The notes below the pieces were generated by a model. The model worked only from the letters and a program-made list of their open reading frames with translations. It made no database searches and had not been told where the DNA came from. Made by a program: the position numbers and the translations under genes. Of a stretch of 58,748 bases of DNA, positions 11,963 through 51,892 are shown in pieces. This DNA is from Prochlorococcus sp. AG-670-M15 (GTDB lineage: Bacteria; Cyanobacteriota; Cyanobacteriia; PCC-6307; Cyanobiaceae): contig QCSV01000003.1 of assembly GCA_003211415.1 (NCBI GenBank), positions 1 through 58,748 of the forward strand, given 5' to 3'. The number at the start of each line of letters is the position of its first letter. Position 1 is the first letter of the stretch.

Positions 11963-11995
11963 AAAAAAAGACCTGCTTTTGAGGCAGGTCTTTTG
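11963..11995 (-). terminator. Rho-independent terminator of the first porin copy
   Basis: Stem AAGACCTGC/GCAGGTCTT with loop TTTTGAG, followed on the minus strand by a run of seven T. It lies 37 nt beyond the porin stop codon. The same hairpin recurs after the second porin (15105-15138) as part of the duplicated block. Confidence 0.85.
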
Positions 11996-12899
11996 TGTGT
12001 GTAGTTTTAATTAATAATTAAACTAATTTAATTAGAAACTAAATGAAGTTTTTAGAGCTACACCAGTAATGTCATCGCCATCTTGCTCAACGATGTAAAC
12101 ACCAGGAGTGATTGTTACTCCATCGTTTATTGGATAAGCGTATGAAGCTTCATAGGTGTAGTACTCATCATCACCATCTGCGAAGTTACCTGTAGTTCCC
12201 ATACCTATGTCCAAACTACCAGGTCCAACTTCAGCGAAACTTAAACCAACAAAGAATCCTTCAGCTGTTGTACCATCATCAACAGATTCAATACCAGCAC
12301 TTAAAGTAGCGAAATCAAAGGCATACATACCGTTAATTCCCCATCCAGTTGTTCCTTCTGAATCAGAATAAGCAACTGATACTCCGTAAGAATCTGCAGT
12401 GTATGCAGCTTCAATACCGAAAAGATCAGCACCTTCTTCTGTCAAAATTGAATCAGTCTCAGAAGATACACCACCAGCTAATGAGAATCCGCTATCAAAA
12501 CCGTATGCCATTGCTGCAGTAACACCATTACCGCCTACACCAACAGTACTTCCTGTTCCACAGTTACCCATGTAATCAGTGAAAGAACTATAAGCACAAG
12601 CTCCAGTATATACAGCACTAATGTCAGTTGAATCACCAACCATTACTGTGGCACCACCTACTGGGAATGTATATGTAAGTCCATCAAGTGTCAGTGCATC
12701 AGTAGTATCATCAAAAGCCAAAGCTCCAGAAGAACCATCACCTATATCAATAGTTGCGCTAAGTGCATCTTCACCAGTGAAACTAGTTTCTAGACCGATA
12801 CCCATTTGGTAACCAAATGCTGTGGCCTCAGAATCTGCACCGTCTTCAGCACCAACAAGAAAATCAACACCGAAAGATGCTGTAGTTGTCTCGGAGAAT
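11963..12899. repeat. 937-bp duplicated block, copy 1 (terminator plus porin 3' part)
   Basis: By eye this block reads identical, base for base, to 15106-16042 (constant offset 3143). It covers the terminator and codons for the C-terminal three quarters of the porin. Identity stops at 12899/16042, inside one codon: TCA in copy 2 is TGA here. Such perfect identity next to diverged flanks points to recent gene conversion or a very recent duplication; a misassembly is also possible. Confidence 0.85.
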
Positions 12900-13114
12900 C
12901 AGCCAATGACATCTTCACTTTCAACTAAACCTTCTCCACCTGAAAGTAAGGTATTAGTAGAAGTATTTTGTTTAAATAAATTACCATCTATCTCTAAATT
13001 ATCTTCAGAGTATTTAGAAATAGCATCAAGATTAACTTCGGAAGCAATAACGGATAACGGTGATAAAAGACCAAGTGCCGCTGGAGCTACCAATAATTGC
13101 TGGAATAGCTTCAT
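12032..13114 (-). pseudogene. Porin (som-like) interrupted by an in-frame TGA
   Basis: Read through, this is a 360-codon outer-membrane porin. It has a signal peptide (MKLFQQLLVAPAALGLLSPL, cleavage about IAS-E), a short linker where longer porins carry an SLH domain (NTLLSGGEGLVES resembles LSNLIAGGEGLM of the PhoE-like porin at 33698), then a beta-barrel ending in the terminal Phe (ALKTSFSF). Codon 72 is TGA (12899-12901) where the intact paralogue has TCA in GSFSETTT. Both sides of the stop are in the same frame. If real, only a 71-aa secreted fragment is made; a restart at the Met at 12805 would have no signal peptide. A sequencing or assembly error at the edge of the duplicated block is the main alternative. 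Confidence 0.8.
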
Positions 13115-13120
13115 AAAAAT

Positions 13121-13129
13121 TCCTCACAC
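13121..13129 (-). promoter_or_regulatory. Candidate Yfr1 sRNA target site / RBS of first porin
   Basis: On the minus strand the leader reads GTGTGAGGA six nt before the ATG. This is complementary to the CUCCUCACAC core of the cyanobacterial sRNA Yfr1, which is reported to pair with porin mRNAs in Prochlorococcus MED4. It overlaps the Shine-Dalgarno GAGGA, so pairing would block translation. Confidence 0.6.
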
Positions 13130-13194
13130 AGAATTGTTTGTCTTCTTATTTTAGTGTAAAAAAAATTAATTGCAAAAGCTGTTAAGCCATTTAA

Positions 13195-15012
13195 TTAATT
13201 GTGCGAGGGGAATAAATCGCTAATAGGTCCTAATAAATCCGCATATTTTTTCCAAAAACCTGAAGAGTTGGAATTTATTTTTTTTCTAACTTGAGCACTA
13301 CTTGCAGTGAATACGCTTCTTTTACTTTTTTGAGGTGAGAGGTATTTTTCACTCCATTCCCAATCAAGCCAATTTATTAAATCTCGAATAGTTTTTTTAG
13401 GATTCTGAACTACCTGCTCATGATCATAACTATATATAATTGATCCAAATTTACTTTTATATTCTTTCATAAGTTTAATGTGATACAGATATAAATCGGA
13501 AATATCATTTAAAGAACTTGAAAAACTCTGATTTAAAAAGTTAGTTCTATAAATAGACAGGATATTATCAAGCGGATTTCTAATACAGTGAATTATCCTA
13601 GCATTTGGGAACAATTCATAGATAATTGGACAATAAAAAAAGTTAAACAAATTTTTATCTGTAAAGATTTTCTTTTTTGAGTTGATGAGCATTACTTTTT
13701 CTTTATATAAACTTTTAACTTCAAGCAAATCGTCAGATTTCTGGAGAGATTCTTCTAAGTAGTAAACTTCTCCAAGATCTTTAACTTCATGATTAAGACT
13801 TAAAATGCTTTCAAGCAATGTGCTTCCACACCTTGGCATTCCAACAATAAATAAATATTGATTACTATCTTTTATTTTCTCAAAGTTTAAATTTTGATCT
13901 ATCCTTAGATTCCTATAGTATTCACCTGTGCTCAACTTTCTATTTAAATCAGATGGTTGAATTTTTAGTTTTTCTTCATTAGCTATTTTGAGAAAATATG
14001 CACTTTTTTTATAGTCTTGAGTGTAATGGTAAGCATACGCTTTTGAATAACCAAAGTATATTTTTTCCTTTTGAGGGAGATTTCCTATATCAATATTTAG
14101 AAGAGTTTTTAATTGCTCATTATGATTTGAGAAATTGTACATAGTTGATAATTCATAATAACTATTTGAATTAAATTGATCATCTAATAAAATTTCCAAA
14201 TGTGTCTTAATAGATAATTCTATTAACCCTAAATTTCTATACATAATTCCCAAATTAAACTTCAACGGAATAAATTTTGGAAAATTTCTAATACCTTCCT
14301 TCAAAATTAAAACTCCTTTTTCTAATTCTTTATTTTTGAAATAAAGATCACTCAGATTAAGATATAAAATTCTCTCTTTACTAAATGATTTTCTTAAATC
14401 TAAAAGAACCTTTTCAGCTAATCTAAATTTCATTTGATTAACAAATATTTTCGAAATTAAAATTTCCCTTTGAAAAAACAAAATGCTATCTTTTGGTAAT
14501 TTCAAATTAAGCAATAATTCTTTGGCATCATCATTTTTTAAAGAATCAATGAGTATATCGGCTTTTAAAATTAGATATATTTGATTATCAGGCTTCTGAT
14601 TAATGGCAGAGTCAATAGAAAGTATTGCTTCTTTAAATGAATTAATACTTTTAAATGTGATAGATAGATTATAGTCAATTTCAGAATTTATTTTTTCTAT
14701 TTTCTTTGCTGCATATAATGTTTTTAAAGCATCATTAATATTGTTCTCTTTTCTTAAAATTTCAGCAAGTAATATATATGAATCAATTTTTAAGGGATAT
14801 TTTTTAATAGATAAAAAAAATAAATTTTTTGCAATCTTTAGATTATTAATCTCTTTGCAGAATAGTCCGTAGGAAATAAGTAAATCATATGTGTAGATTT
14901 TTTGATCTATTAATTTCCTATAGATTTCATTAGCTTGATATATTTTTCCTTCCTTGTGATTCTTTTTTGCAATTTCAATATATTTTGATATTTCTGCTAT
15001 GTCGTATTTCAT
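13195..15012 (-). CDS. TPR-repeat sulfotransferase
   Basis: A 605-aa protein. Residues 1-375 are tandem TPR-type helical repeats (EIYRKLIDQKIY, NINDALKTLYAAKKI, LNLSDLYFKNKELEKGVLIL). From about residue 387 comes a sulfotransferase domain with the PAPS 5'-phosphosulfate loop FIVGMPRCGSTLLESIL, and later RIIHCIRNPLDNILSIYR, the 3'-phosphate-binding R-x6-S region. It should transfer sulfate from PAPS to a sugar, lipid or protein; the TPRs probably bind the acceptor. No signal peptide is visible. It sits between the two porin copies and is a distant paralogue of the gene at 16573. Confidence 0.85.
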   Translation of the reverse strand: MKYDIAEISKYIEIAKKNHKEGKIYQANEIYRKLIDQKIYTYDLLISYGLFCKEINNLKIAKNLFFLSIKKYPLKIDSYILLAEILRKENNINDALKTLYAAKKIEKINSEIDYNLSITFKSINSFKEAILSIDSAINQKPDNQIYLILKADILIDSLKNDDAKELLLNLKLPKDSILFFQREILISKIFVNQMKFRLAEKVLLDLRKSFSKERILYLNLSDLYFKNKELEKGVLILKEGIRNFPKFIPLKFNLGIMYRNLGLIELSIKTHLEILLDDQFNSNSYYELSTMYNFSNHNEQLKTLLNIDIGNLPQKEKIYFGYSKAYAYHYTQDYKKSAYFLKIANEEKLKIQPSDLNRKLSTGEYYRNLRIDQNLNFEKIKDSNQYLFIVGMPRCGSTLLESILSLNHEVKDLGEVYYLEESLQKSDDLLEVKSLYKEKVMLINSKKKIFTDKNLFNFFYCPIIYELFPNARIIHCIRNPLDNILSIYRTNFLNQSFSSSLNDISDLYLYHIKLMKEYKSKFGSIIYSYDHEQVVQNPKKTIRDLINWLDWEWSEKYLSPQKSKRSVFTASSAQVRKKINSNSSGFWKKYADLLGPISDLFPSHN

Positions 15013-15104
15013 TATTTTGCTATATAGTATTTCATTATTTATTTAGAAGAAATAATGCCATTTAAATGAATGATACATTCTTTTCAGTTCTCATGGCTTA
15101 CGAC

Positions 15105-15138
15105 AAAAAAAAGACCTGCTTTTGAGGCAGGTCTTTTG
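15105..15138 (-). terminator. Rho-independent terminator of the intact porin
   Basis: Same hairpin as at 11963-11995 (AAGACCTGC/GCAGGTCTT, loop TTTTGAG), with eight T on the minus strand. It lies 37 nt after the porin stop codon. Confidence 0.85.
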
Positions 15139-16042
15139 TGTGTGTAGTTTTAATTAATAATTAAACTAATTTAATTAGAAACTAAATGAAGTTTTTAGAG
15201 CTACACCAGTAATGTCATCGCCATCTTGCTCAACGATGTAAACACCAGGAGTGATTGTTACTCCATCGTTTATTGGATAAGCGTATGAAGCTTCATAGGT
15301 GTAGTACTCATCATCACCATCTGCGAAGTTACCTGTAGTTCCCATACCTATGTCCAAACTACCAGGTCCAACTTCAGCGAAACTTAAACCAACAAAGAAT
15401 CCTTCAGCTGTTGTACCATCATCAACAGATTCAATACCAGCACTTAAAGTAGCGAAATCAAAGGCATACATACCGTTAATTCCCCATCCAGTTGTTCCTT
15501 CTGAATCAGAATAAGCAACTGATACTCCGTAAGAATCTGCAGTGTATGCAGCTTCAATACCGAAAAGATCAGCACCTTCTTCTGTCAAAATTGAATCAGT
15601 CTCAGAAGATACACCACCAGCTAATGAGAATCCGCTATCAAAACCGTATGCCATTGCTGCAGTAACACCATTACCGCCTACACCAACAGTACTTCCTGTT
15701 CCACAGTTACCCATGTAATCAGTGAAAGAACTATAAGCACAAGCTCCAGTATATACAGCACTAATGTCAGTTGAATCACCAACCATTACTGTGGCACCAC
15801 CTACTGGGAATGTATATGTAAGTCCATCAAGTGTCAGTGCATCAGTAGTATCATCAAAAGCCAAAGCTCCAGAAGAACCATCACCTATATCAATAGTTGC
15901 GCTAAGTGCATCTTCACCAGTGAAACTAGTTTCTAGACCGATACCCATTTGGTAACCAAATGCTGTGGCCTCAGAATCTGCACCGTCTTCAGCACCAACA
16001 AGAAAATCAACACCGAAAGATGCTGTAGTTGTCTCGGAGAAT
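15106..16042. repeat. 937-bp duplicated block, copy 2
   Basis: Partner of 11963-12899, reading identical throughout. Beyond 16042 only the next few bases (AGCCA) match before the two porin genes diverge, so the 5' fifth of each gene and its upstream region are distinct. This copy is open through the codon that is TGA in copy 1. Confidence 0.85.
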
Positions 16043-16218
16043 GAGCCAGCCTCAAGATTGTTGAATCTAGCTTCTAAACCGTCTATACGGCTATTTGTAA
16101 CTGCAATTTCTTCTGCAGCATTGAAATCATTAATAGTGACTTCGTTAGCAGTCGCAGCAACAGGGGCAAGTAAGCCTAATGTTGCAGGAGCGACTAGTAA
16201 GCTCTTAAAAAGCTTCAT
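15175..16218 (-). CDS. Outer-membrane porin (som-like), intact
   Basis: A 347-aa porin starting at the ATG at 16218 (MKLFKSLLVAPATLGLLAP, signal peptide ending near TAN-E), chosen because a strong GAGGA ribosome site lies seven nt upstream; the longer frame to 16248 only adds residues before the signal. A short coiled segment (VTNSRIDGLEARFNNLEAG) precedes a Gly/Asp-rich beta-barrel that ends in Phe (ALKTSFSF), as outer-membrane barrels do. The SLH domain of longer cyanobacterial porins is missing. A barrel-internal Cys pair (ACAYSSFTDYMGNCG) is conserved with the PhoE-like porin. It is probably a general diffusion channel. It is transcribed divergently from the TPR-sulfotransferase at 16573. 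Confidence 0.87.
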   Translation of the reverse strand: MKLFKSLLVAPATLGLLAPVAATANEVTINDFNAAEEIAVTNSRIDGLEARFNNLEAGSFSETTTASFGVDFLVGAEDGADSEATAFGYQMGIGLETSFTGEDALSATIDIGDGSSGALAFDDTTDALTLDGLTYTFPVGGATVMVGDSTDISAVYTGACAYSSFTDYMGNCGTGSTVGVGGNGVTAAMAYGFDSGFSLAGGVSSETDSILTEEGADLFGIEAAYTADSYGVSVAYSDSEGTTGWGINGMYAFDFATLSAGIESVDDGTTAEGFFVGLSFAEVGPGSLDIGMGTTGNFADGDDEYYTYEASYAYPINDGVTITPGVYIVEQDGDDITGVALKTSFSF

Positions 16219-16223
16219 AAATT

Positions 16224-16232
16224 TCCTCACAC
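16224..16232 (-). promoter_or_regulatory. Candidate Yfr1 sRNA target site / RBS of intact porin
   Basis: The minus-strand leader GTGTGAGGA, five nt before the porin ATG, is complementary to the Yfr1 core and covers the Shine-Dalgarno. It lies outside the duplicated 937-bp block, so it is kept in both copies independently of the gene conversion. Confidence 0.6.
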
Positions 16233-33652: not shown

Positions 33653-33697
33653 TTCTCATAGATTTGGATATTTATCCATTTTTACGTGTTGAGGTTC

Positions 33698-35023
33698 ATG
33701 AAACTTTTTCAAAAACTAATTGCTGCTCCTGCAATCATTTCTTTGGCATCAGGTTTAGCAGTAAACGCAGCTGAGATCAATTCAACAGATCTTAGTGATT
33801 ATTCAAACTCCAACAATTTAGTATCTTTAGGTGATTTTAAATCTGATACTTTATTCCCAGGAGATTGGGCTTACGATTCATTAAAGGATCTTACAAATAG
33901 CCCTAAATTTAATGGTAACTCAGTTACTCGTTTAGAAGCTGCTGCTGAATTAAGCAATCTAATCGCTGGTGGTGAAGGCTTAATGAACGGAGCTGCAATA
34001 GGTAGGCTAAGTGATGAACTTGGTTCTGAGTTGGCAATTATGAAAGGAAGAGTTGATGGCCTTGAAGCTCGTGTTAACGGACTTGAAGCTGGTTCTTTCA
34101 GTGAAACGACCACTATGAGTGGTGAAGTAGGGTTCCTATTAGGTGCAACTGATTCAGCAACTAAAGCCAATGATGTAGTTCAGTTTGAATATGCCTTAGG
34201 AATTGACCTAGATACAAGTTTCACAGGTGAAGATAACTTAAACATCGGAATAGTAACTGGAAATGGTCTAACAAATGTTGGTGCTGATAATACTGGTTTA
34301 GACTGGGGAGAAAGTGAAAGTGACGCCCTTGTGGTTAATGACCTCAACTACACTTTCCCAGTAGGCGCATGGAAGGTTGCAGTTGGTGATTCTATGGATG
34401 CATCCAAGACTTGGCCTAATGCATGTTCCATGAATAATATGGTTGATAACTTAGGAGATTGTGGTGCCGCAAACTCTGTTGACTTAAGTGGTAATGTTTC
34501 ACTTAGTGCTGCAACTGGATTTGGAGATGGTTGGGAACTTGGACTAGGTATATCTGGAATTGCAGGCAAAACCGATACTACCTCCACTGGTTTGTTTACT
34601 AAAGAAGGTACTGACCTTTTTGGTTTAGCTCTTGGTTATGAAGCAGATACATTCGGTTTCACAGTAGCTTACTCTGATAAAGATACTGCCAACTACTACG
34701 GTTTAGTTGCATATTACAGCCCCGAAGAATTACCAACTACCTTTAGCGGTGGTGTTGAAGTAGGGAATCCAGATTCAGGGGAAGACACAACTCAATGGGC
34801 TTTCGGTATTAGTACTGATGTAGGTGAAGGTACATTAAGTGCAAACATTGGAACCAATGGACCAATCAAAGACAATGCAGAAGAAATTTATGCATATGAT
34901 CTTTCCTACGAATATCCACTTAACGACAGTATGAGTATTACACCTTTCGTTTACATTTCTCAAACGACAGGTACAACTGTTGACACTACTGGAGCCGGTG
35001 CATTTGTATCATTCTCTTTTTAA
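33698..35023 (+). CDS. phoE: Phosphate-starvation porin PhoE-like, with SLH domain
   Basis: A 441-aa porin starting at the ATG at 33698 (MKLFQKLIAAPAIISLASGL, signal peptide ending NAA-E); GAGG lies just upstream, and the four extra codons from the GTG at 33686 are unlikely. Residues about 50-95 are an SLH domain (GDWAYDSLKDLTNSPKFNGN, then SVTRLEAAAELSNLIAGGEG) that anchors the barrel to peptidoglycan, followed by a coiled coil (MKGRVDGLEARVNGLEAG) and a barrel ending in Phe (GAFVSFSF). Between PhoB-like boxes and next to pstS and phoBR, it is the equivalent of the phosphate-induced porin of other strains. The barrel is related to the porins at 12032 and 15175. Confidence 0.88.
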   Translation: MKLFQKLIAAPAIISLASGLAVNAAEINSTDLSDYSNSNNLVSLGDFKSDTLFPGDWAYDSLKDLTNSPKFNGNSVTRLEAAAELSNLIAGGEGLMNGAAIGRLSDELGSELAIMKGRVDGLEARVNGLEAGSFSETTTMSGEVGFLLGATDSATKANDVVQFEYALGIDLDTSFTGEDNLNIGIVTGNGLTNVGADNTGLDWGESESDALVVNDLNYTFPVGAWKVAVGDSMDASKTWPNACSMNNMVDNLGDCGAANSVDLSGNVSLSAATGFGDGWELGLGISGIAGKTDTTSTGLFTKEGTDLFGLALGYEADTFGFTVAYSDKDTANYYGLVAYYSPEELPTTFSGGVEVGNPDSGEDTTQWAFGISTDVGEGTLSANIGTNGPIKDNAEEIYAYDLSYEYPLNDSMSITPFVYISQTTGTTVDTTGAGAFVSFSF

Positions 35024-38488: not shown

Positions 38489-38640
38489 AATTTTATTAAA
38501 AACTACTTTTAAAGATTTTTTAAATAGATCTTAAATCCGACCTTCTTTTTTTAATGTTAGCTTACTTCTACGTTCATCCAATTTATTTGGACGCATGAAA
38601 TGAGAATAGGGAACGGGATTCTCATTAACTGCATAAGATC

Positions 38641-39783: not shown

Positions 39784-40569
39784 GTGAATAATAAGCTCTC
39801 CTTAAAAAATATTAATGTCAAATATGGAGAGAGCCTAGCTTTAAAATCTATAAACTTAGATATTTACAAAGGTGAATTTGTAGTCCTTCTTGGATCTTCT
39901 GGGGCAGGTAAATCAACTTTACTAAGAACAATAAATCAATTGAATCCATTAACTTCAGGAGAGTTAGATTTTTTTGATTTAGGAAAAATAAGAAATAAAA
40001 AAGATCTTCAGAATTTAAGAAAAAAAACTGGGATGATATTTCAACAACATCAGTTGATTGAGAGAAATACTGTTTTCCAAAATGTTTTAACTGGTCGACT
40101 TGGATTTCATTCACTATTTAGAAGTATTTTACCTCTTCCAAAATTTGATCAAGAACTTGCTCTCGATTGCATAGATAGAGTTAGCCTCTTAGATAAAGCG
40201 CTTGTAAAAGTAAAAGAATTAAGCGGAGGACAACAACAAAGAGTAGGAATTGCTAGAGCTTTAGCTCAAAATCCTTCGTTGATTTTGGCAGATGAACCAA
40301 TAGCTAGTCTTGACCCAAAAACTTCCCATCAAGTTTTATCGATGCTGAAAGATATTTGTAAGAAAGATAATATATCCGCATTAACTAGTCTTCACCAAGT
40401 TGATTTTGCTAAAGAATATGGAGATAGAATTATTGGCTTAAGTCATGGGAAAATAGTTTTTAATGGTAAATCAGATCAACTTTCAGACGAGATTTTAAAA
40501 AATATTTATTCATCTTCACCAATAGCAGAAGAAGCAAATTTTACCTCAAATGAAGTGGTAATGGTTTAA
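39784..40569 (+). CDS. ptxA: Phosphite ABC transporter ATP-binding protein PtxA
   Basis: A 261-aa PhnC-type ABC ATPase with Walker A GSSGAGKSTLLRTI, Q-loop (GMIFQQHQLIERNTV), signature LSGGQQQRVGIARALAQ, Walker B LILADEP and the H-loop (SLHQV). GTG start. It energises uptake together with PtxB and PtxC. It is called ptx rather than phn because ptxD, a phosphite dehydrogenase, ends the operon. Confidence 0.9.
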   Translation: MNNKLSLKNINVKYGESLALKSINLDIYKGEFVVLLGSSGAGKSTLLRTINQLNPLTSGELDFFDLGKIRNKKDLQNLRKKTGMIFQQHQLIERNTVFQNVLTGRLGFHSLFRSILPLPKFDQELALDCIDRVSLLDKALVKVKELSGGQQQRVGIARALAQNPSLILADEPIASLDPKTSHQVLSMLKDICKKDNISALTSLHQVDFAKEYGDRIIGLSHGKIVFNGKSDQLSDEILKNIYSSSPIAEEANFTSNEVVMV

Positions 40570-40581
40570 AACCACTTCATT
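40549..40581 (+). promoter_or_regulatory. Stem-loop between ptxA and ptxB
   Basis: An 11-bp perfect inverted repeat, AATGAAGTGGT/ACCACTTCATT, with an 11-nt loop that holds the ptxA stop codon. No T-run follows, so it is probably not a terminator. Such hairpins can protect the downstream mRNA and raise the amount of binding protein. Confidence 0.6.
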
Positions 40582-40583
40582 AA

Positions 40584-41480
<897 letters not shown>

Positions 41481-41518
41481 AAAAATCACTTTACAAATAC
41501 AAATAAAAAAATTATTAA

Positions 41519-42316
41519 ATGGATAAATTCAAAAGAATTTTAGAGGTCGAAAGGAGGACTTGGAAAAAACAATTTTTCAGGGTTCTCATAATTTTGATAT
41601 TTGTATTTTCTTCTTTAGCAGTTATAGGTCTTTTCGATTTTGAAAGGATAAGTACAGGTATTCCGGCAGTTTTAAAATTACTGCCGGAAATGTTTCCTCC
41701 TGATTTCTCAAGAGCTGGAACTTGGTTTAAACCTTTAATAGACTCTTTGGCAATGAGTATCGCAGGAACTTCGATTTCTGTTTTTTTATCTTTACTTCTA
41801 TGTTTTTTTGCTGCAAGAAATACAACTATAAATCCAATTGTTTACAACTTAGCAACACTAATTTTAAACGTCACAAGAGCTGTTCCTGAATTAATTTTAG
41901 GAATTATTCTAGTTGCAATGATTGGCTTTGGTGCTCTACCGGGGACATTGGCATTAGGTCTTCATTCTGTTGGAATGTTAGGTAAATTTTATGCTGAAGC
42001 TATTGAGCTTTGTGACAAGGAACCTATAGAAGCAGCTAGAGCTTCTGGCGCAAGTGATCTACAAGTTATTGTGCATAGCATTCTTCCTCAAGTTTTTCCT
42101 GCTATGGCTGATGTTACTTTTTATAGATGGGAATACAACTTTAGAGCTTCAATGGTTGTGGGTGCTGTAGGGGCTGGTGGTATAGGTTTAGAGATCATAA
42201 GTGCTTTGAGGATAATGGATTATGCTCAAGTATCAGCTTTATTAATAGTAGTTTTAGTCGTAGTAACTGTATTAGATAGCATGAGTAACTATCTCAGGAA
42301 ATCAGTATCTGAATAA
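41519..42316 (+). CDS. ptxC: Phosphite ABC transporter permease PtxC
   Basis: A 265-aa PhnE-type inner-membrane permease with about six hydrophobic segments. The cytoplasmic EAA loop is EAARASGASDLQVIVHSILP. Further family segments are ILNVTRAVPELILGIILVAM and VGAVGAGGIGLEIISALRIM. It starts 38 nt after ptxB and is followed 10 nt later by ptxD. It pairs with PtxA to import phosphite. Confidence 0.9.
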   Translation: MDKFKRILEVERRTWKKQFFRVLIILIFVFSSLAVIGLFDFERISTGIPAVLKLLPEMFPPDFSRAGTWFKPLIDSLAMSIAGTSISVFLSLLLCFFAARNTTINPIVYNLATLILNVTRAVPELILGIILVAMIGFGALPGTLALGLHSVGMLGKFYAEAIELCDKEPIEAARASGASDLQVIVHSILPQVFPAMADVTFYRWEYNFRASMVVGAVGAGGIGLEIISALRIMDYAQVSALLIVVLVVVTVLDSMSNYLRKSVSE

Positions 42317-42326
42317 TTCTCATTAA

Positions 42327-43283
42327 ATGAAGAAAGTTGTTATTTCCAATAAAGTTCATACTGAAGTTATTGAGTTATTAGAAAAAAATTTTGAAGTAAT
42401 TAGTAACCAAAATGATAAACCTCTAACTTATGAAAAATTAAAGTTCTTATGTAAAGATGCAAATGGTGTGATGGTATTTATGCCAGATAGAATTGATAAG
42501 AACTTTTTAGATAATTCAAAAAATTTAGAGATCATCTCTGGAGCACTAAGAGGATTTGACAATATTGATTTGGAAGAGTGCATAAAAAGAAATATAAAAT
42601 TTACAATGATCCCAGATTTACTTGCTTCCCCTACAGCAGAGTTAACATTGGGACTTCTTATTGGTTTATCAAGAAATCTACTAATAGGTGATGAATATGT
42701 TAGATCTGAAAAGTTTAAAGGTTGGGAACCAAAATTCTTCTCAAATGGAATTGAAGGGAAAAATGTTTGTCTTCTAGGTATGGGTAAATTAGGGGTTGAA
42801 GTAGCTAGGAAGATTAAAGGTTTTAATGTAAAACTTTTTTATCATGATTTACAAAAATTAGATTCAATAGATGAACAACAACTAAACACCAAATATCTGG
42901 AATTAAATGATCTTTTTGAGAAGGCTGATTATTTGGTTATTCTTTTACCTTTAAAAAACGATACTTACCATTTTATTAACTTTGAAAATATTTTAAAAAT
43001 AAAAAAAAATTGTTTACTTATTAATACTTCAAGAGGTTCTGTAGTAGATGAGAGTGCAATTGCACAAGCAATTAATTCTGGGCACATAGGAGGATATGCT
43101 TCAGATGTCTTTGAATTTGAAGATTTATCGATAAAAGATCGACCAAAAAAAATTAATCAGGAATTATTAAATTTAAAAGATAAGACTTTTTTTACTCCTC
43201 ATCTTGGCTCAGCAGTTGATGAAGTTAGACTTTTTATTGAATTAGAAGCTGCTCAAAATATTATCAACTTTTTATATCATTAA
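42327..43283 (+). CDS. ptxD: NAD-dependent phosphite dehydrogenase PtxD
   Basis: PtxD oxidises phosphite to phosphate with NAD, so phosphite can serve as sole P source. The 318-aa protein matches the known enzyme closely: ISGALRGFDNIDLEEC, IPDLLASPTAELTLGLLIGL, EYVRSEKFKGWEPKFF, the NAD-binding VCLLGMGKLGVEVARKI, NTSRGSVVDESAI, and YASDVFEFEDLSIKDRPKKI, a stretch distinctive of PtxD among D-2-hydroxyacid dehydrogenases. The catalytic His is in TPHLGSAVDEVRL. Its last 20 nt overlap the convergent GNAT gene. Confidence 0.94.
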   Translation: MKKVVISNKVHTEVIELLEKNFEVISNQNDKPLTYEKLKFLCKDANGVMVFMPDRIDKNFLDNSKNLEIISGALRGFDNIDLEECIKRNIKFTMIPDLLASPTAELTLGLLIGLSRNLLIGDEYVRSEKFKGWEPKFFSNGIEGKNVCLLGMGKLGVEVARKIKGFNVKLFYHDLQKLDSIDEQQLNTKYLELNDLFEKADYLVILLPLKNDTYHFINFENILKIKKNCLLINTSRGSVVDESAIAQAINSGHIGGYASDVFEFEDLSIKDRPKKINQELLNLKDKTFFTPHLGSAVDEVRLFIELEAAQNIINFLYH

Positions 43284-43689
43284 TAGTTTTATACATTTTT
43301 ATATAAGAGATATTTTCTTTTTTGAAATAATCACCTTCAGATAAAAAACCGAATTTTTCATAAAACATTTGGGCTTTTTTTCTAGAAAATAAATAAATAT
43401 AATTTATTTTTTTTTTTTCTAAATAAGAAATTGAATGACAAATTAATTTAGACCCAAATCCTTTGTTTTGATAAGCAGGTTTTGTGGCCATTTTTCTAAT
43501 TCTTGCTTTACTTTCTCTAATGTAAAGTGAAATTATTGATATTAATTCCTCTTGTTTATATAAACCAAAATGTGTACCATTTTTATCATCTTCAAGAATA
43601 CAAAATTCTCTTTTTTTATCTGGCCAAATAGCTTCATGCCTTATATCAATAGTTTGATTAGAATATATTTTTCTAATTGAAATTGGCAT
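43264..43689 (-). CDS. GNAT-family N-acetyltransferase
   Basis: A 141-aa acetyltransferase with motif A in MATKPAYQNKGFGSKLICHS (the Q-x-x-G-x-G/A acetyl-CoA loop) and motif B in AQMFYEKFGFLSEGDYF. The N-terminus is IRKIYSNQTIDIRHEAIWPD, a pattern seen in small cyanobacterial GNATs. The substrate is unknown. It is convergent with ptxD (20-nt overlap) and divergent from phnY, so it is inserted between two phosphorus operons but on the other strand. Confidence 0.82.
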   Translation of the reverse strand: MPISIRKIYSNQTIDIRHEAIWPDKKREFCILEDDKNGTHFGLYKQEELISIISLYIRESKARIRKMATKPAYQNKGFGSKLICHSISYLEKKKINYIYLFSRKKAQMFYEKFGFLSEGDYFKKENISYIKMYKTINDIKS

Positions 43690-43761
43690 TCTTAATTATC
43701 TTTTCTTCTTAAATTTATCTTAATCATAAATGTTTAATATCTTGTTAAGACTTGTATTGAG

Positions 43762-44499
43762 GTGGAATCAGTTTTGAACAATATAAAATTAAAATTCGAT
43801 AATGACGGATTTATAGTTAATGAGAACCTAATAAATCAAGTTGATTTAGAGGCAATTGAAAAATGGATTAGTGAACTTAACGACTCTAAAGAGGTTAACC
43901 ATCATTATGAAAAAACAGTTAATGGTAAAGTGCTTTCAAGAACAGAAAACTTTGTAAGCTCGCATACATCTTTTAGGGAATTTCTTTTAAGTTCATCAAT
44001 AAAAGATTATTTAACTATGCTATTTGATGATGAACCAATATTATTCAAGGAAAAAATAAATTATAAATACCCAGGGGGAGCTGGATATGCACCTCATCAA
44101 GATGCTCCTGCTTATCCTTTTGGGAAAAAACACATAACAATGCTATTAGCTATAGATGACTCTGATATAAATAATGGATGTTTGGAATTTGCAAGAGGTA
44201 GAAATAATGAGGGCATAATAAATATTGATGAAAAGGGGTGTATAGATTCACTAACCGCAGAAAAATTTGTTTGGGAGAAGATACCTCTTAAAAAAGGAGG
44301 CGCAGTATTTTTTGATTCTTTTGTTCCTCACAGAAGTTCAACAAATAAATCTAGTCGTCCAAGAAGAGCGCTCTATGTAACTTATAATGCTAAAACTGAA
44401 GGCGATTTAAGAAAAGATTATTATGACTTTAAAAAGAACTCTCTTAAAGATGGATATGTAAGTTTAATAGGTCACTTTGAAGGAGAAGCAATTAAATGA
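43762..44499 (+). CDS. phnY: 2-oxoglutarate/Fe(II) phosphonate dioxygenase (PhnY-type)
   Basis: A 245-aa PhyH-fold dioxygenase. The iron ligands are in APHQDAPAYPFG (H-x-D) and FVPHRSS (distal His), and the 2-oxoglutarate-binding Arg is in the RPRRALYVTYN end. PhnY hydroxylates a phosphonate at C1; PhnZ then cleaves it to release phosphate. It starts with GTG and ends overlapping the phnZ start (ATGA). In Prochlorococcus MIT9301 such a pair has been linked to methylphosphonate use; I infer the same here. Confidence 0.85.
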   Translation: MESVLNNIKLKFDNDGFIVNENLINQVDLEAIEKWISELNDSKEVNHHYEKTVNGKVLSRTENFVSSHTSFREFLLSSSIKDYLTMLFDDEPILFKEKINYKYPGGAGYAPHQDAPAYPFGKKHITMLLAIDDSDINNGCLEFARGRNNEGIINIDEKGCIDSLTAEKFVWEKIPLKKGGAVFFDSFVPHRSSTNKSSRPRRALYVTYNAKTEGDLRKDYYDFKKNSLKDGYVSLIGHFEGEAIK

Positions 44500-45101
44500 A
44501 ATACAAAACTATTAAAAACTTCAAAAACAAATTACAAAATTCTGATAACAATGAATTTGTAGATTTATTATTTGACTTTATTAAGGAGGAAGGAAAAACT
44601 AATTATGATGAATCAGTCACTCAATTACAACATAGTCTCCAAACAGCTTCACTCGCTCGCACTGAAGATGGCAGAAGGCATATAGTAATTGCTTCTTTGT
44701 TACACGATATAGGTCATCTTCTAATAGATGAAAATGACTCAAAAAATGATTTCTTAAAAAAAGATCTTAACCATGAAAATATTGCTTCAAATTTTTTAAA
44801 AGATTTTTTCTCTGAAGAAATTACAGAAAGTATTCGCTTACACGTTGTAGCAAAAAGATATTTATGCTCAATCGATAATTCTTATTATGAAAGTTTATCT
44901 AAAGCATCTAAAAATAGTTTTAAGGTACAAGGTGGTGCTTTAAATAAAGAAGAGATTAATGAACTAGAAAATAATAAATACTTCAAAGATGCAGTTCGAT
45001 TAAGAAAATGGGATGATAGAGGAAAGGTTTCTCTTAAAGAAGTTGAAGAATTAGATACTTATAAAGAAATGATTGTTGCCGAAAGATTAGCTATCTATTA
45101 A
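44496..45101 (+). CDS. phnZ: HD-domain mixed-valence diiron oxygenase PhnZ
   Basis: A 201-aa HD protein with the metal ligands visible in order: QLQHSLQTASLAR, ASLLHDIGHLL (HD motif), DLNHENIAS, SIRLHVVAKRY, and an Asp in the KYFKDAVRLRKWDD helix. This order, and the start ESVTQLQH, fit PhnZ, which oxidatively cleaves the C-P bond of 1-hydroxyphosphonates. Its ATG overlaps the phnY stop, so the two proteins are made together. Substrate range cannot be read from the sequence. Confidence 0.87.
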   Translation: MKYKTIKNFKNKLQNSDNNEFVDLLFDFIKEEGKTNYDESVTQLQHSLQTASLARTEDGRRHIVIASLLHDIGHLLIDENDSKNDFLKKDLNHENIASNFLKDFFSEEITESIRLHVVAKRYLCSIDNSYYESLSKASKNSFKVQGGALNKEEINELENNKYFKDAVRLRKWDDRGKVSLKEVEELDTYKEMIVAERLAIY

Positions 45102-46644: not shown

Positions 46645-47898
46645 TCATACTTCTGCCAAATCAAAAGCCTTTTTAAGATCTTTGGTCATAAATCTAGCGT
46701 AACTTTCTAGGTGTGTTTGTAGATCATGCCCCATTGCATCAGCAATTTGTTTAGGTGCTCGCATTGTTCCATCTTCCATAGGTCTAGTGTGAGCAACATA
46801 TGCGTATCTATGACGGAAGGAATATGGTTTGCACTTTTGTCCTTCTGCTTCTGCTTCTGCACAAATAGACAACCAAGTCTTTCTAATGCTCTTCCTCCTA
46901 AGATATTCTCCAAAGTTTTGACCGCCATTACCTAGAGGAATTTTTGGCAGTTCTTCTCCCGCTGCCAACCTTTGCACTAAGTTGTAGTTCCAATCAAAAG
47001 GTTCTCCATCTACATCTCTAACCAATAAAGGCAATAGTTGTCTTTCTTTAAAATTAGAATTTACTTTTTGGTATATACACCAAAGTTCTGTCTTGTTATT
47101 TCTGAGAACCAGATGATTAAGTTCTTCTGGTCTTAATCCATAAACTGAACAAAGTTGAGCAGCAAACTTCCATCTTTGGGCTTGTGGTTGGTCAATAAAG
47201 TTATCTACTAATCTTCCAATCTGGGCATCTGTTAATGGATAACCAATATCTTTCTTTTTAGCTATATTTTTTTCTTCATTATTATCTTTGAAATTTCCAT
47301 AATTTGGTCTCCAATAAGAAGGGAAATCTTCATAGTTGCAGCAATAATCTAAAAAACTATTAAAAGCTAATCTCATATGCCTTCTTATTGTTGCCTTGTC
47401 AGGTGGCCAACCAACTAATTGATTGTATTGTCCATGCTTATATTCATTAATTACCTTTTTATATAAAGCTCTAGCATTTTGCGGTCTATGATTTGCTCTA
47501 TTCATATAGAACATAACTCCCTCTAAAACAGGAAGATGCTTTTTATTCCAAGTGTTTTCTTTAATATCTGATCTTTCTTTTCTATATCTAACAAAAGCCC
47601 CTTCCCAATCAAGTTTGACTTCCGAAGAAGAGTTTCTTGCATATTTAAAAGCGGTCTTTAAAAGGATCTTTCCATTATTTTCTAAATAAGTGTTTGCTCC
47701 TTCTTCTATAAACTTCAATGCTTCAATCATTTGATTCTCTTCCCATAAGTAAGGAAGGTTTATAGATTTTCTTCCAGTTGTCTTAGTTCCATATATTAAA
47801 CGCATATTCCCTCTATCATTTTCTACTGTCCAACCAGATCCAATAGATTCCTTTATTGCCCTTCTTAATGTTTTTACCCAATTGTTTGATTGTGGCAT
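46645..47898 (-). CDS. Tyrosine recombinase (integrase), copy 1
   Basis: A 417-aa tyrosine recombinase. Catalytic residues: Arg256 in VYGLRPEELNHL, Arg362 in KPYSFRHRYAY (Tyr replaces the usual His of H-x-x-R), His391 and the nucleophile Tyr400 in MGHDLQTHLESYARF. The N-terminal 130 residues (SNNWVKTLRRAIKESIGSGW) are shared in pattern with the recombinase at 50192. The start is 147 nt from the tRNA-Pro 3' half at 48045, the position expected of an integrase next to its attachment site. It should cut in the anticodon loop core GTGCTTTGGGAGCA. Confidence 0.9.
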   Translation of the reverse strand: MPQSNNWVKTLRRAIKESIGSGWTVENDRGNMRLIYGTKTTGRKSINLPYLWEENQMIEALKFIEEGANTYLENNGKILLKTAFKYARNSSSEVKLDWEGAFVRYRKERSDIKENTWNKKHLPVLEGVMFYMNRANHRPQNARALYKKVINEYKHGQYNQLVGWPPDKATIRRHMRLAFNSFLDYCCNYEDFPSYWRPNYGNFKDNNEEKNIAKKKDIGYPLTDAQIGRLVDNFIDQPQAQRWKFAAQLCSVYGLRPEELNHLVLRNNKTELWCIYQKVNSNFKERQLLPLLVRDVDGEPFDWNYNLVQRLAAGEELPKIPLGNGGQNFGEYLRRKSIRKTWLSICAEAEAEGQKCKPYSFRHRYAYVAHTRPMEDGTMRAPKQIADAMGHDLQTHLESYARFMTKDLKKAFDLAEV

Positions 47899-47966
47899 TT
47901 AATGACCGAGTGCTCTACCTATTGTCCACGGATTTCCGTGGATTTTCAACTGAGTAAGGCAAAAGT

Positions 47967-47994
47967 GTGCAGTCTCGTGCAGTCTTATGCAGAG
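47967..47994 (+). repeat. Three phased GTGCAGTC-type repeats beside recombinase 1
   Basis: GTGCAGTCTC (47967), GTGCAGTCTT (47977) and ATGCAGAG (47987) lie in 10-bp phase between the recombinase start and the tRNA 3' half. I find no equivalent pair at the left end of the 24-kb interval, where GTACGCA is used instead. Confidence 0.65.
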
Positions 47995-48044
47995 TATGAC
48001 TTCAGTTATAGCTTAGATCCCTTTGTCTCACTAGAAGAGTCATA

Positions 48045-48090
48045 GTGCTTTGGGAGCACTAGGTCGCAGGTTCGAATCCTGTCGCCCCGA
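48045..48090 (+). repeat. tRNA-Pro 3' half (att), with terminator
   Basis: Bases 29-74 of tRNA-Pro(TGG), identical to 51771-51816. The D-arm and 5' acceptor strand are absent, so it is not a functional tRNA. The flank AAGTCATACTAGCGAGT...ACTCGCTTTTTT (48103-48137) copies the terminator of the intact tRNA gene. Confidence 0.93.
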
Positions 48091-48164
48091 CTCTAAAAAA
48101 TCAAGTCATACTAGCGAGTCTCTCAACTCGCTTTTTTATTATTTGTTGTCTCACATTAAGAAAA

Positions 48165-48184
48165 GGTAGCTAGAGGGGTAGCTA
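48165..48184 (+). repeat. Left paired repeats of the metal cassette
   Basis: GGTAGCTA at 48165 and 48177, separated by GAGG (12-bp period). Identical in word and spacing to the right-end pair at 49461. Confidence 0.8.
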
Positions 48185-48293
48185 GGATACAGTTGTTGCG
48201 GTCGTCACTTACTTATCTAGTGCCTTTTATTGACAATTCCATCAATTAGGTTGTTCCCCAAAAATTTTAGAACACTTATTAATCAATAAGTGC

Positions 48294-48926
48294 TTAATCA
48301 ATAAGTGCGACCCATGAAAAGGCTGCTCCAATACCGATTAAAATTCCCGAAACCAAATTTTTATTCTTTAAAATTTTTCCAATATGCTCTGATAAGTATA
48401 GGACTATTAAGAGCAAAGATCCTTGCCCTATAAATATTCCTAAAAAGTAACTTAATAGAGGACTTTGCTCAGCACCAATAATTGCACCTCCTATCAAGTA
48501 ACCATGCAAAGAGATCATGGGTAAAAGTAATGAGCTAGGTAAATAGCCCAAAATTATCAAACTTTCTAAAACTAAGCTTAAAGATACTAATGCTTCTGCG
48601 TAGGGAATCATAAATTCTGGCAATGACAAAATTTGCGCAATAGCACTTCCAATTAAACCAAAACCTAATAAAGGTAATATCCATTTTTTTGGGAATCTCA
48701 ATCCAATAAGACTTATTGCCAAAATAAAAAGGAGATGGTCTGGACCTAATAAGGGATGACCAATACCACTGATAAATCCCTGCCAGGAAGTTAATGTGGA
48801 ACTCTCACCCATACCAAATGGATGATGAGCAAATACTGGATTATAGATACTAATAAAAAACAAATATACAGGGAAGATTATTAAAGAGACTTTTAAGTTC
48901 TTATGAAAAAAATTTTTAGAATTCAT
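48294..48926 (-). CDS. hupE: HupE/UreJ-family metal transporter
   Basis: A 210-aa membrane protein (ATG at 48926; the longer frame to 49004 overlaps another gene). A signal-like segment ends VFAHHPFGMGESST, with the His-rich H-H-P-F-G motif after cleavage, then GFISGIGHPLLGPDHLLFIL (the HPxxGxDH signature of HupE/UreJ) and further helices (MISLHGYLIGGAIIGAE). HupE proteins carry nickel or cobalt; Prochlorococcus needs Ni for superoxide dismutase and Co for B12. It lies 13 nt downstream of the Cys-rich gene, behind Fur-like operators. Confidence 0.87.
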   Translation of the reverse strand: MNSKNFFHKNLKVSLIIFPVYLFFISIYNPVFAHHPFGMGESSTLTSWQGFISGIGHPLLGPDHLLFILAISLIGLRFPKKWILPLLGFGLIGSAIAQILSLPEFMIPYAEALVSLSLVLESLIILGYLPSSLLLPMISLHGYLIGGAIIGAEQSPLLSYFLGIFIGQGSLLLIVLYLSEHIGKILKNKNLVSGILIGIGAAFSWVALID

Positions 48927-48939
48927 TTTTCTATTTAAA

Positions 48940-49077
48940 TTAATGATCTTTGCATGGTGAACATTCTTCACAATCTGTACATTCGCAAGGACAAACACAA
49001 CCACAACCTGGACAAACTTCTTTCTCGTTTAAAATCAAAGTATCTGTTACTAAATGTTTTGTAAAAGTAATAACCAT
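48940..49077 (-). CDS. Cys-rich metal-binding protein (metallothionein-like)
   Basis: A 45-aa protein whose residues 22-42 hold nine Cys in the order C-x2-C-x-C-x-C-x-C-x-C-x2-C-x2-C-x2-C (CPGCGCVCPC then ECTDCEECSPC), ending KDH. That density is found only in metallothioneins and metal-sequestering peptides. The N-terminal 20 residues are ordinary. It does not align with SmtA of freshwater Synechococcus. It is upstream of hupE in the same operon, which suggests it buffers or delivers the imported metal. Confidence 0.75.
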   Translation of the reverse strand: MVITFTKHLVTDTLILNEKEVCPGCGCVCPCECTDCEECSPCKDH

Positions 49078-49169
49078 AATTTGGAAAATTTATTTCTAAA
49101 TATAAACAATATATGACTAAAAATTAATGCTAGTAATAATTTTTTATACATTTTATAAAATTAAATTAA

Positions 49170-49325
49170 AAAACGATTATCATTTTTATTTAATTAAGAA
49201 ATATATTATTTAACAAAATTTAAAAATGATAATCATGTTCATGAATATTATTTAACAAAACAATAACAAACCTTTTAAATAATATTTTGATAATGAAAAT
49301 CACATTCATGATTATTATTTAAAAA
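49170..49325. promoter_or_regulatory. Repeated Fur/Zur-like operator sites
   Basis: Three AT-rich imperfect palindromes precede the Cys-rich gene: CGATTATCATTTTTA (49174), ATGATAATCATGTTCATGAA (49226) and TGATAATGAAAATCACATTC (49289). The last two share TTCATGAwTATTATTTAA. They resemble Fur-family boxes (TGATAAT-x-ATTATCA), so a Fur, Zur or Nur regulator probably acts here. Confidence 0.55.
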
Positions 49326-49460
49326 GATAACTTCACTCAGCTTCTATATCAATAATTCTTTTACCTTCCAAAGCATTAATTCTTTCTTCTTGGAATTCAA
49401 TAGCGACTATCAATTATTTTTTGGGGTGATAACTACAAGAAGGCACTCGGGTGTAAAAGG

Positions 49461-49480
49461 GGTAGCTAGAGGGGTAGCTA
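49461..49480 (+). repeat. Right paired repeats of the metal cassette
   Basis: GGTAGCTA at 49461 and 49473 (12-bp period), matching the left end. A second pair, ATGCGA at 49493 and 49503 (10-bp period), follows. Confidence 0.8.
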
Positions 49481-49605
49481 AGTGACGATCTCATGCGAAT
49501 TCATGCGATAGCAAGGCATGAATTTGAGACTCAGAAACGTTCCAACACAATAGATAACTCTAGTTATAATCTATATTCTTATATTTTTCTCAAAGTTACA
49601 TACAA

Positions 49606-49650
49606 GTGCTTTGGGAGCACTAGGTCGCAGGTTCGAATCTTTTAGCCCTA
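49606..49650 (+). repeat. Decayed tRNA-Pro 3' half (att)
   Basis: Bases 29 onward of tRNA-Pro are kept through the T-loop (GGTCGCAGGTTCGAATC), then the acceptor strand is corrupted (TTTTAGCCCTATG for CTGTCGCCCCGA). The downstream terminator is lost. It is an old junction. Confidence 0.85.
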
Positions 49651-49704
49651 TGAGTTTCAGCAATAAGTCTCAGCTAATACCTAGTTCACTCAAATTTTTG
49701 CTTC

Positions 49705-49724
49705 ACGCAAAATTTACGCAAAAT
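49705..49724 (+). repeat. Left paired repeats of the recombinase-2 cassette
   Basis: ACGCAAAATTT at 49705 and ACGCAAAATAA at 49716, 11-bp period. Confidence 0.75.
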
Positions 49725-49741
49725 AAATCTTTGAAAAATAA

Positions 49742-50080
49742 TTAACCTGTGAATCCCATTTTCTGTTCTGCTGCCATTAATGAGCCAACAAGCTTGTGCT
49801 CAGCAACTTTTTCATCGTCAGTCATAACTGGCTTGATATCAAAATCTATATCAAACTTAACTTTCCAAGGAGCAAAATGTTCTGTCATTTTTATGCCTGC
49901 TGAAGCTTGGACAATAATATAAACATTATTTGAGTAAGAGGCATGATACCTTCCCAAAACTTTGAATCCTTCAAACTCATCATTCAAAGTTCCATCTTCA
50001 ATAACCTTTAAAAAAAGATCATACGCTGCACCCATAAGAGAAACATTTTTAAAAGTTGCAGTTACTAAATAAGTATTCAT
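49742..50080 (-). CDS. DUF3303-like small protein
   Basis: A 112-aa alpha/beta protein: MNTYLVTATFKNVSLMGAAY, then GRYHASYSNNVYIIVQASAG, EHFAPWKVKFDIDFDIKPVM and TDDEKVAEHKLVGSLMAAEQ. The W-x-x-x-F-D-x-D-x-x-P-V-x-T ending resembles DUF3303 (dimeric alpha-beta barrel, function unknown). It is downstream of recombinase 2 on the same strand. Cargo of that cassette. Confidence 0.6.
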   Translation of the reverse strand: MNTYLVTATFKNVSLMGAAYDLFLKVIEDGTLNDEFEGFKVLGRYHASYSNNVYIIVQASAGIKMTEHFAPWKVKFDIDFDIKPVMTDDEKVAEHKLVGSLMAAEQKMGFTG

Positions 50081-50191
50081 TTGATTAATAAATCTATAAA
50101 TCTTTTATAGGGTATAGCATTTAGTATTGAGTTAAGGATCTTGAAATGAATATTTCTGCTAAAGGAATTTTTTTAGATCGACTGTCAATAA

Positions 50192-51529
50192 TTAAACCGC
50201 TTGAAGTTCTCTAGCTTTTATAAATGCTTTTTTAGTAGTTGTAGTTTTTGCGTAATCATACGACTCAAGATGTGTTCTTAATGTATGCCCCATTGCATCA
50301 GCAACACTACCCGCATCAATTCCTAATTGATGACCTCTTAAGGAATAAGAATGTCTAAAGCTATAACAACCAAGACTTTCGCCCCGCTTGGCCATTAATG
50401 CTTTAAGAGAAATCCAACCCGCTTTTTGTTTTAACCATTTACCCATTTGATCTCCAACACCCTCAACAGTTTTGCAATCTGGCATACATTGATAGGGAAG
50501 TTCTAATAGACCTGCTTTGTACAATCTGACTACTTCTTCATAATGAACATTGCCATCATTATCTACTAGATAAAGAGGTTCTAATATTCTTGGTTTTGTT
50601 ACACCCTGACCCGATCTTTTTTCATACATACACCAAAGTTCATCTTTTCTCTTTTTATAAACTAAGTGTCTTAATTCAATAGGTCGTAAACCAAAAACAG
50701 CACAAAGCTTCATTGCATTGACCCATTTTTTGGCAGCGAGTATATGATGCGGTTGCCCTGTTTCTGTTGGTAGAGAATTTATTAAATTAATAAACTCTTG
50801 ATCTTCTATTGATGCTTTTTTGTTTCTGGCTTTTTTAGCTTCTTTAGAAGGTCTTCCAATGTATTCTCTTAAGTCATCAGGTGGAAGCCAATCACTAGGA
50901 TAATTTTTCTTAGTAACGCAATACTTTAAAAAAGAAGCAAGATTTCTCACTCTTTGTTCTCTAGCTCTACCACCAAGTTCATAAGTTAATGGTTTTGGTG
51001 CAATATTATTTCTTCTCATATAGTCAGTAACCTTTTCAATTCCATTTTTTGCACAAATTTCTAATAATTTATCTGCATTTATTGGAGCATCTTTGGTTTT
51101 TAATAAGTTAACTGCGTAAGTGATTACAGGTTCATACTCTTTAGTCCAAGTTCCATTAGCAATACCAGTTCCCATCTCTTTTTTATATTTTTCAAAGTCA
51201 TCCTTTGCACCAACCCAATCGTGGGAATAAGTTAATTTAGGAGCTAAACCCGCGCATACAGCAACCGCAGTATCAAAATCTCCGCCATTGTTAGCCATCT
51301 CAACATAGATATTCCTAACACGAGTAATAATATCTCCCATATTCTGGGATGAATAAGAAAAAGGAATATTATTCTTCATTAATTGGGCAGAACGCATCCC
51401 ATTACCAGTTCTAACCTCTAATCTTGCAAGTCCTCTATGTTCTCTAACAGTCCAACCCTTTGCAGTAGAAGATCTTATGGCTGTTCTTAAGCCATTTACC
51501 CATGCTTCATTATTTTTGAGTTTGGGCAT
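50192..51529 (-). CDS. Tyrosine recombinase (integrase), copy 2
   Basis: 445 aa from the ATG at 51529 (the 17 extra residues of the longer frame do not align with copy 1). N-terminus NEAWVNGLRTAIRSSTAKGW parallels copy 1. Catalytic residues, counted from the longer frame: Arg299 in VFGLRPIELRHL, Arg409 in GCYSFRHSYSL (Tyr in place of His), His432 and Tyr441 in MGHTLRTHLESYDYAK. Upstream of its start lie TGCGTAC and two GTACGCA copies, so its own promoter overlaps the end repeats. It begins 213 nt from the intact tRNA-Pro, the expected integration target. Confidence 0.9.
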   Translation of the reverse strand: MPKLKNNEAWVNGLRTAIRSSTAKGWTVREHRGLARLEVRTGNGMRSAQLMKNNIPFSYSSQNMGDIITRVRNIYVEMANNGGDFDTAVAVCAGLAPKLTYSHDWVGAKDDFEKYKKEMGTGIANGTWTKEYEPVITYAVNLLKTKDAPINADKLLEICAKNGIEKVTDYMRRNNIAPKPLTYELGGRAREQRVRNLASFLKYCVTKKNYPSDWLPPDDLREYIGRPSKEAKKARNKKASIEDQEFINLINSLPTETGQPHHILAAKKWVNAMKLCAVFGLRPIELRHLVYKKRKDELWCMYEKRSGQGVTKPRILEPLYLVDNDGNVHYEEVVRLYKAGLLELPYQCMPDCKTVEGVGDQMGKWLKQKAGWISLKALMAKRGESLGCYSFRHSYSLRGHQLGIDAGSVADAMGHTLRTHLESYDYAKTTTTKKAFIKARELQAV

Positions 51530-51533
51530 TAAT

Positions 51534-51574
51534 TTGCGTACACATAGGCACAATGTACGCAATTTGTACGCAAA
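51534..51574 (+). repeat. GTACGCA repeats at the recombinase-2 end
   Basis: Inverted TGCGTAC at 51535, then GTACGCAA at 51555 and 51566 (11-bp period). The same word is at the left end of the VapE element (24139/24149), suggesting that the two ends belonged to one element or use the same binding protein. Confidence 0.75.
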
Positions 51575-51742
51575 ATGCAACCGCAGAGTGTCTTCGGGTT
51601 ATAACAAAGGTTGACTAGATATTGCACTAAATCCATTGACACTATTATAATCTAAGTAAGTAAAACGCTTGTTATTACTACAAAAATTCTTTTTGTGACT
51701 TTGTTTACTAACATCCCTCTCATAGATTAGAATGATGTTTAG

Positions 51743-51816: not shown

Positions 51817-51841
51817 CTCAATCAAATCCAAGTCATACTAG

Positions 51842-51867: not shown

Positions 51868-51892
51868 TGCTTTCTTTTAGAATAATGAGACT

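Follow-up and report, generated by a model that had tools for sequence, protein, structure and literature searches.

Homogenised barrels and terminators on separate front ends in a Prochlorococcus porin pair

The window analysed here, a 58,748-nt stretch of Prochlorococcus sp. AG-670-M15 DNA (contig 3 of a 1.17 Mb genome in 75 contigs, 68% complete), carries two porin genes that are identical over much of their length and clearly different at their N-termini, and one of them is interrupted by a stop codon at the very edge of the identical tract. The locus raises the question of how two such genes come to share one half and not the other, and whether the stop belongs to the same process. Its parts are as follows.

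11963-12899, reverse strand: homogenised tract of copy 1 (barrel coding sequence, stop codon, 3′ region and terminator hairpin; 937 nt, equal to 15106-16042)
11963-11996, reverse strand: terminator hairpin of copy 1, with the stem sequence of copy 2 and unlike that of other species
12032-13114, reverse strand: porin copy 1, positional orthologue of MED4 PMM1119, interrupted after 71 codons
12899-12901, reverse strand: in-frame TGA in copy 1, from codon comparison with other copy-1 orthologues
12902-13114, reverse strand: copy-1 N-terminus (signal peptide and short periplasmic segment), matching the copy-1 N-termini of other species
13121-13129, reverse strand: GTGTGAGGA upstream of the copy-1 start, a candidate site of the Yfr1 type present in 35/35 copy-1 genes
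13195-15012, reverse strand: TPR-sulfotransferase between the porins (Pfam PF13469, E 2e-26)
15106-16042, reverse strand: homogenised tract of copy 2 (937 nt, equal to 11963-12899)
15106-15139, reverse strand: terminator hairpin of copy 2, with the stem sequence of copy 1
15175-16218, reverse strand: porin copy 2, intact, 347 aa, positional orthologue of MED4 PMM1121
16224-16232, reverse strand: GTGTGAGGA upstream of the copy-2 start, a candidate site of the Yfr1 type present in 33/35 copy-2 genes

An earlier note on this DNA had read the two tracts as identical over 937 bp, covering the terminator and most of the barrel, and the N-terminal parts as clearly different, and this description holds in full. 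Every base of 11963-12899 equals its counterpart in 15106-16042 and the flanking base differs at both ends; the tract comprises 867 nt of coding sequence up to the stop codon and, beyond it, 69 nt of 3′ sequence that include the terminator hairpin, while DNA identity between the N-terminal parts is 53-56%. Towards the N-terminus, the first mismatch (12900, C, versus 16043, G) makes the codon TGA in copy 1 and TCA in copy 2, so that copy 1 is split into ORFs at 12899-13114 and 12032-12805, with a normal start and signal peptide. The same pair is found in G126, the closest comparison species, whose barrels differ from the window's at 30 of 867 nt in either copy, whereas the window's own barrels differ from each other at none; chance is thereby excluded as the cause of the identity. 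Between the same two genomes there are 16 differences in the 207 nt of the copy-1 front end and 139 in the 1909 nt of the sulfotransferase region. If mutation is even, no more than about 10% of the time since divergence from G126 would have passed since the last conversion in the window (95% bound).

Relatives were looked for among 266 genomes of the genus, and the main set consists of 35 Prochlorococcus genomes with the porin pair. The two barrels of a genome are 100% identical in 22 of the 35 pairs and more than 98% identical in 31, whereas the front ends within a genome are ∼55% identical (51–65% in all pairs but one). Between species, barrels lie 3.5–35% (median 9%) from their nearest relative, the median barrel distance being 0.0 within a genome and 0.091 to the nearest other species. 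Phylogenetic trees give the same picture, with the two barrels of a genome as sisters in 33 of 35 cases and the front ends as sisters in one; the copy-1 N-terminus of the window, in particular, is not sister to that of its copy 2. Barrel length ranges from 861 to 984 nt among pairs and is equal within the genome in 31/35, indels being common to both copies. The terminator stem reads GACCTGCC...AGCAGGTC in both copies of the window and GACCTACC...GGTGGGTC in both copies of G126. Gene order next to trmFO is conserved. The whole block is present in 13 species, with copy 1 open in all 13, at about 357–375 aa, barrels at least 99.3% identical in 12 of them (92% in G130) and front ends again near 55% identity. 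Concerted evolution is recognised here by paralogues that are more alike within a genome than orthologues are between genomes, by a pair that is older than the species (conserved positions, front ends sorted by copy type), and by the homogenisation of silent and non-coding sites within sharp limits.

Homogenisation is not universal. The copy-1 barrels of L104 and L117 differ by 43–44% from copy 2 and by 10% from each other, and from their sequence seem to have escaped; in L012 and L126 the two barrels are 7–11% different. At L080, by the same kind of comparison, conversion seems to have extended over most of the front end as well. In four loci (L119, L121, L124 and L126) the porins are directly adjacent, about 1.2–1.3 kb from start to start and with no sulfotransferase between them; the pairs of L119, L121 and L124 are likewise homogenised and that of L126 is not.

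The earlier note spoke of a recent gene conversion between the two porins. Conversion, and its recency in the window, stand; the event was not a one-off, being recurrent and clade-wide. A single recent conversion or a recent duplication confined to the window genome, with copy 1 on its way out, would account for 0 differences over 937 nt and for the nonsense codon, yet this architecture recurs in the other pairs, where the diverged front ends sort by copy type across species, and copy 1 shows no decay apart from the stop. Since the front ends sort in this way, the pair must be older than the species and each species homogenised separately; recent duplication is rejected on the conservation of the front ends by copy type, and the window-only explanation as a whole is very unlikely. 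About as improbable is an artefact of assembly or amplification, in which diverged copies were collapsed or joined as a chimera in a single-cell genome; the earlier note had considered a chimeric assembly. The named relatives are almost all Prochlorococcus single-cell genomes, so the window genome is probably one too; 75 contigs and 68% completeness are typical of such an assembly, and the contigs of several relatives end within the barrel. However, such contig ends are the effect of a true repeat on short-read assembly, and the pattern recurs, within nearly identical limits, in three single-contig genomes: the barrels are identical at 900/900 positions in G044, 891/891 in G022 and 906/912 in G033 (100%, 100% and 99.3%). 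With complete genomes showing the same identity, assembly collapse is rejected for the porin family. It could also be argued that the barrel is the functional unit and that purifying selection on the channel protein keeps the copies alike without any exchange of DNA. We give this hardly any credence, as the identity within genomes and the divergence between them extend to synonymous sites, indels, the 3′ untranslated sequence and the terminator stem. Homogenisation of silent and non-coding positions implies DNA exchange rather than selection on protein, and selection alone is rejected on the identity of silent sites and terminators.

The explanation that we consider very probable is recurrent gene conversion limited to the barrel and terminator, with crossover as an alternative outcome and the TGA of copy 1 as a later single base change. 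The direct observations are the pattern of identity, the recurring boundaries, the tree relationships and the flanks at the single-porin loci; the mechanism proposed for them is as follows. The two porins would be long-standing direct repeats, with about 3.1 kb from one start to the other, and their barrel halves and terminators would overwrite each other repeatedly by homologous recombination, presumably of the RecA type, in the form of gene conversion without crossover. The signal peptides and periplasmic front parts would share too little sequence to recombine and would stay different. The outcome would be concerted evolution, with one channel on two front ends and two upstream regions, each with a candidate site of the Yfr1 type over the ribosome-binding region; having two front ends on one channel may be useful. 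Crossover between the same repeats would remove the copy-1 front end and the sulfotransferase, as in several species.

The tract limits fit this proposal. On the 5′ side the tract begins with the codon before FSETTT, at residue 61 of the structural model and three residues before the first predicted barrel strand, and in most pairs it ends just past the terminator; nearly the same boundaries are found in about 30 species. In seven of 35 pairs (L006, L011, L063, L067, L068, L071 and L111) the 5′ edge lies 6–8 nt further, past the first barrel codon. Transfer in both directions is visible at the junction codon, which is TCA in copy 1 of G218 and GGA in copy 2 of G133; in the window, transfer may have run either way, and copy 1 might be the dying donor that the earlier note considered. 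The tract limits are the points at which homology between the copies ends, so that recurrent boundaries need no special site and are not specific to the event in the window.

The 5′ limit coincides with a change in predicted structure. Copy 2 consists of a signal peptide, a short helical segment and a barrel in which 16 strands are predicted, as in 16-stranded porins. In the model (mean pLDDT 70) the first 61 residues are of low confidence and outside the barrel, whose strand 1 begins at residue 64 of 348. Foldseek matches of this model include the R. blastica porin and OmpF (E about 1e-10, TM 0.55–0.6). By sequence, the porin appears related to NF033921 por_somb (Som/iron-uptake porin) in a shortened form; it missed the curated cut-off of that family (63.5 versus 100 bits). 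No SLH domain was matched before the barrel in copy 2 or in the copy-1 front end, a Pfam search of the porins gave sub-threshold OprB only, and a sequence search of the PDB gave no match. The window also holds a third, longer porin (33686-35023) with an SLH-like front end, the junction motif GSFSETTT here too, and a barrel outside the identical repeat.

Eight loci have a single porin (L072-L076, L109, L113 and L114). These loci combine the copy-2 front end and upstream flank with the copy-1 downstream flank, and the copy-1 front end is absent at the locus; at L072-L076 the TPR-sulfotransferase is absent along with it. Such flanks would be expected of a crossover between direct repeats. A single locus and a pair can be close relatives, L074 (single) and L089 (pair) being sisters with support of 99/94. 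On the trmFO tree the single state needs several changes, at least four of them forced by well-supported branches, but the protein tree is poorly resolved and the number of independent losses is therefore uncertain. For individual loci the single porin may instead be ancestral, with the second copy gained later.

The stop codon requires separate consideration. The comparison with close relatives that the earlier note had proposed finds copy 1 intact (about 357–382 aa), the barrels homogenised and TGA nowhere else: among the copy-1 genes examined, only the window genome has it at the junction codon. That codon is GGN in 28 and Ser in six of the 34 other copy-1 orthologues, and Ser in 30 of 35 copy-2 genes. 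Around it the window reads ATT GGC TGA TTC in copy 1 and GCT GGC TCA TTC in copy 2, the codons being one base apart and the copies agreeing back to TGGCT. The earlier note held that TCA had been turned into TGA, exactly at the conversion boundary. The TGA and its position are as described; the original copy-1 codon need not have been TCA, as relatives mostly have GGN, and an ancestral TCA requires a tract that had already passed the junction codon. The link to the boundary is weak, because the copies also match upstream of it (TGGCT). Most simply, we infer, the TGA is one base change in the window lineage or cell, from TCA after conversion into GGC TCA. With the mutation inside a longer tract, the mutated base itself looks like the tract edge, and the coincidence with the boundary would vanish. 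A G to T mutation of a GGA codon may also have given the TGA. Copy 1 is otherwise without decay, having no frameshift and a front end that differs at 16 of 207 nt from its intact G126 orthologue.

Two other origins of the stop carry some weight. The TGA may be absent from the organism, having been fixed as damage or error during single-cell amplification or assembly; we regard this as improbable, though worth keeping in mind. It would agree with the lack of a stop at the junction codon in every other copy-1 gene examined, and a change from GGA to TGA is a G to T change, of the kind produced by oxidised guanine. Against it, the TGA base adjoins unique sequence and neither TCA nor GGA gives TGA by a simple copy switch; mixing of the two copies alone therefore cannot yield it. 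Somewhat less likely again is a stop made by conversion itself, in which a patchy tract edge joined the T of a donor TCA to the GA of a recipient GGA, neither parent having a stop. With G126 standing in for the recipient, four changes fall in the final 12 nt of the copy-1 front end and 12 in the remaining 195 nt (Fisher p 0.008, in a test chosen post hoc); at three of the four, among them the C of GGC and the T of TGA, the base is that of copy 2. This explanation requires a non-contiguous tract, however, and other copy-1 genes share some of these upstream bases (GGC in G133 and G110), while one C to G mutation within a longer tract is equally simple and a reach of 6–8 nt past the usual edge is seen in the seven pairs above. 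If the stop is real, the product of copy 1 is a fragment of 71 aa and the channel comes from copy 2 only; the stop codon itself is of little weight until confirmed.

Both upstream regions carry the same candidate regulatory site. The motif GUGUGAGGA, which we take to be complementary to the Yfr1 motif, lies at the ribosome-binding site in 35/35 copy-1 and 33/35 copy-2 genes, which makes both porins candidate Yfr1 targets by sequence. The sRNA Yfr1 is reported to repress a PMM1121 leader fusion in E. coli, PMM1119 is reported as a Yfr1 target and Yfr1 binding of the MED4 porins is reported (PMC6778093). Both porins are reported to be highly expressed in MED4 (PMC3898218). The G033 copy-2 porin lies ∼130 bases from the published position of Yfr21c, which adjoins PMM1121 (PMC2518516).

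Conversion between outer-membrane paralogues is known already, as is long-lasting concerted evolution of psbA and psbD. Brucella omp2a and omp2b are likewise neighbouring porin genes that swap segments by gene conversion, with complete identity in some strains. About 830 bp separate the two, which are oppositely oriented; conversion between them is segmental, and omp2a has been described as silent (PMC7050475). In the Prochlorococcus pair, by contrast, the copies are direct repeats, a defined domain and the terminator are homogenised, the front ends are kept apart, and both genes are reported as expressed in MED4. In the bab genes of Helicobacter pylori a variable middle serves adhesion diversity, whereas the Prochlorococcus copies are made alike across the entire channel. 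H. pylori babA/babB and homA/homB likewise show concerted evolution of outer-membrane paralogues with part of the gene converted (PMC3960876, PMC2795765). Cyanobacterial psbA and psbD are, similarly, paralogues in conserved positions that cluster by species through recurrent conversion; the same study notes that short-term concerted evolution often concerns outer-membrane protein genes, and the word 'porin' is absent from its main text (PMC6053082). The MED4 genes PMM1119 and PMM1121 are the same locus by position and are described as duplication products bound by Yfr1, conversion or concerted evolution being unmentioned in the available parts of that paper (PMC6778093). In the open-licence literature, judged by titles and abstracts, no paper evidently describes conversion of the Prochlorococcus porin pair, which is a new and unusually clean case as far as that search extends.

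The locus is evidence that an outer-membrane protein can evolve in concert across much of a genus. PMM1119 and PMM1121 belong to the strongly expressed genes of an organism that is photosynthetic and very abundant. If the channels are evolutionarily one gene, they will be confounded in any phylogeny, expression array, read mapping or proteomic study that counts them as two, and short-read assemblies would break or mis-join at the pair. The pair also offers a natural measure of conversion versus mutation in a streamlined genome. More speculatively, and with little confidence, it might be a maintained device that carries one channel on two front ends and upstream regions, in which conversion spreads new barrel variants to both at once (for example with altered phage binding or uptake), and from which a copy escapes once its barrel is too different to recombine (L104/L117).

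Other features lie further along the window. A glutamine-II riboswitch (Rfam RF01704, 55.4 bits) is found at 38568-38625, and 39784-45101 encodes an ABC transporter, a phosphite-dehydrogenase-like protein and two oxygenase/HD-like proteins, which by their ORF translations resemble a cassette for phosphite or phosphonate use. The region 46645-58748 resembles a tycheposon-type mobile island anchored at a tRNA, with tRNA-Pro(TGG) at 51743-51817 and two tyrosine-recombinase-like ORFs (46645-47898 and 50192-51580). Partial copies of the tRNA-Pro occur at 48044, 49605, 54269 and 55856 and at 20143, 22708 and 24034. Large surface-protein-like ORFs at 52165-53055 and 57384-58364 contain coding repeats of 27 nt (glycine-rich, calcium-binding-like) and 171 nt.
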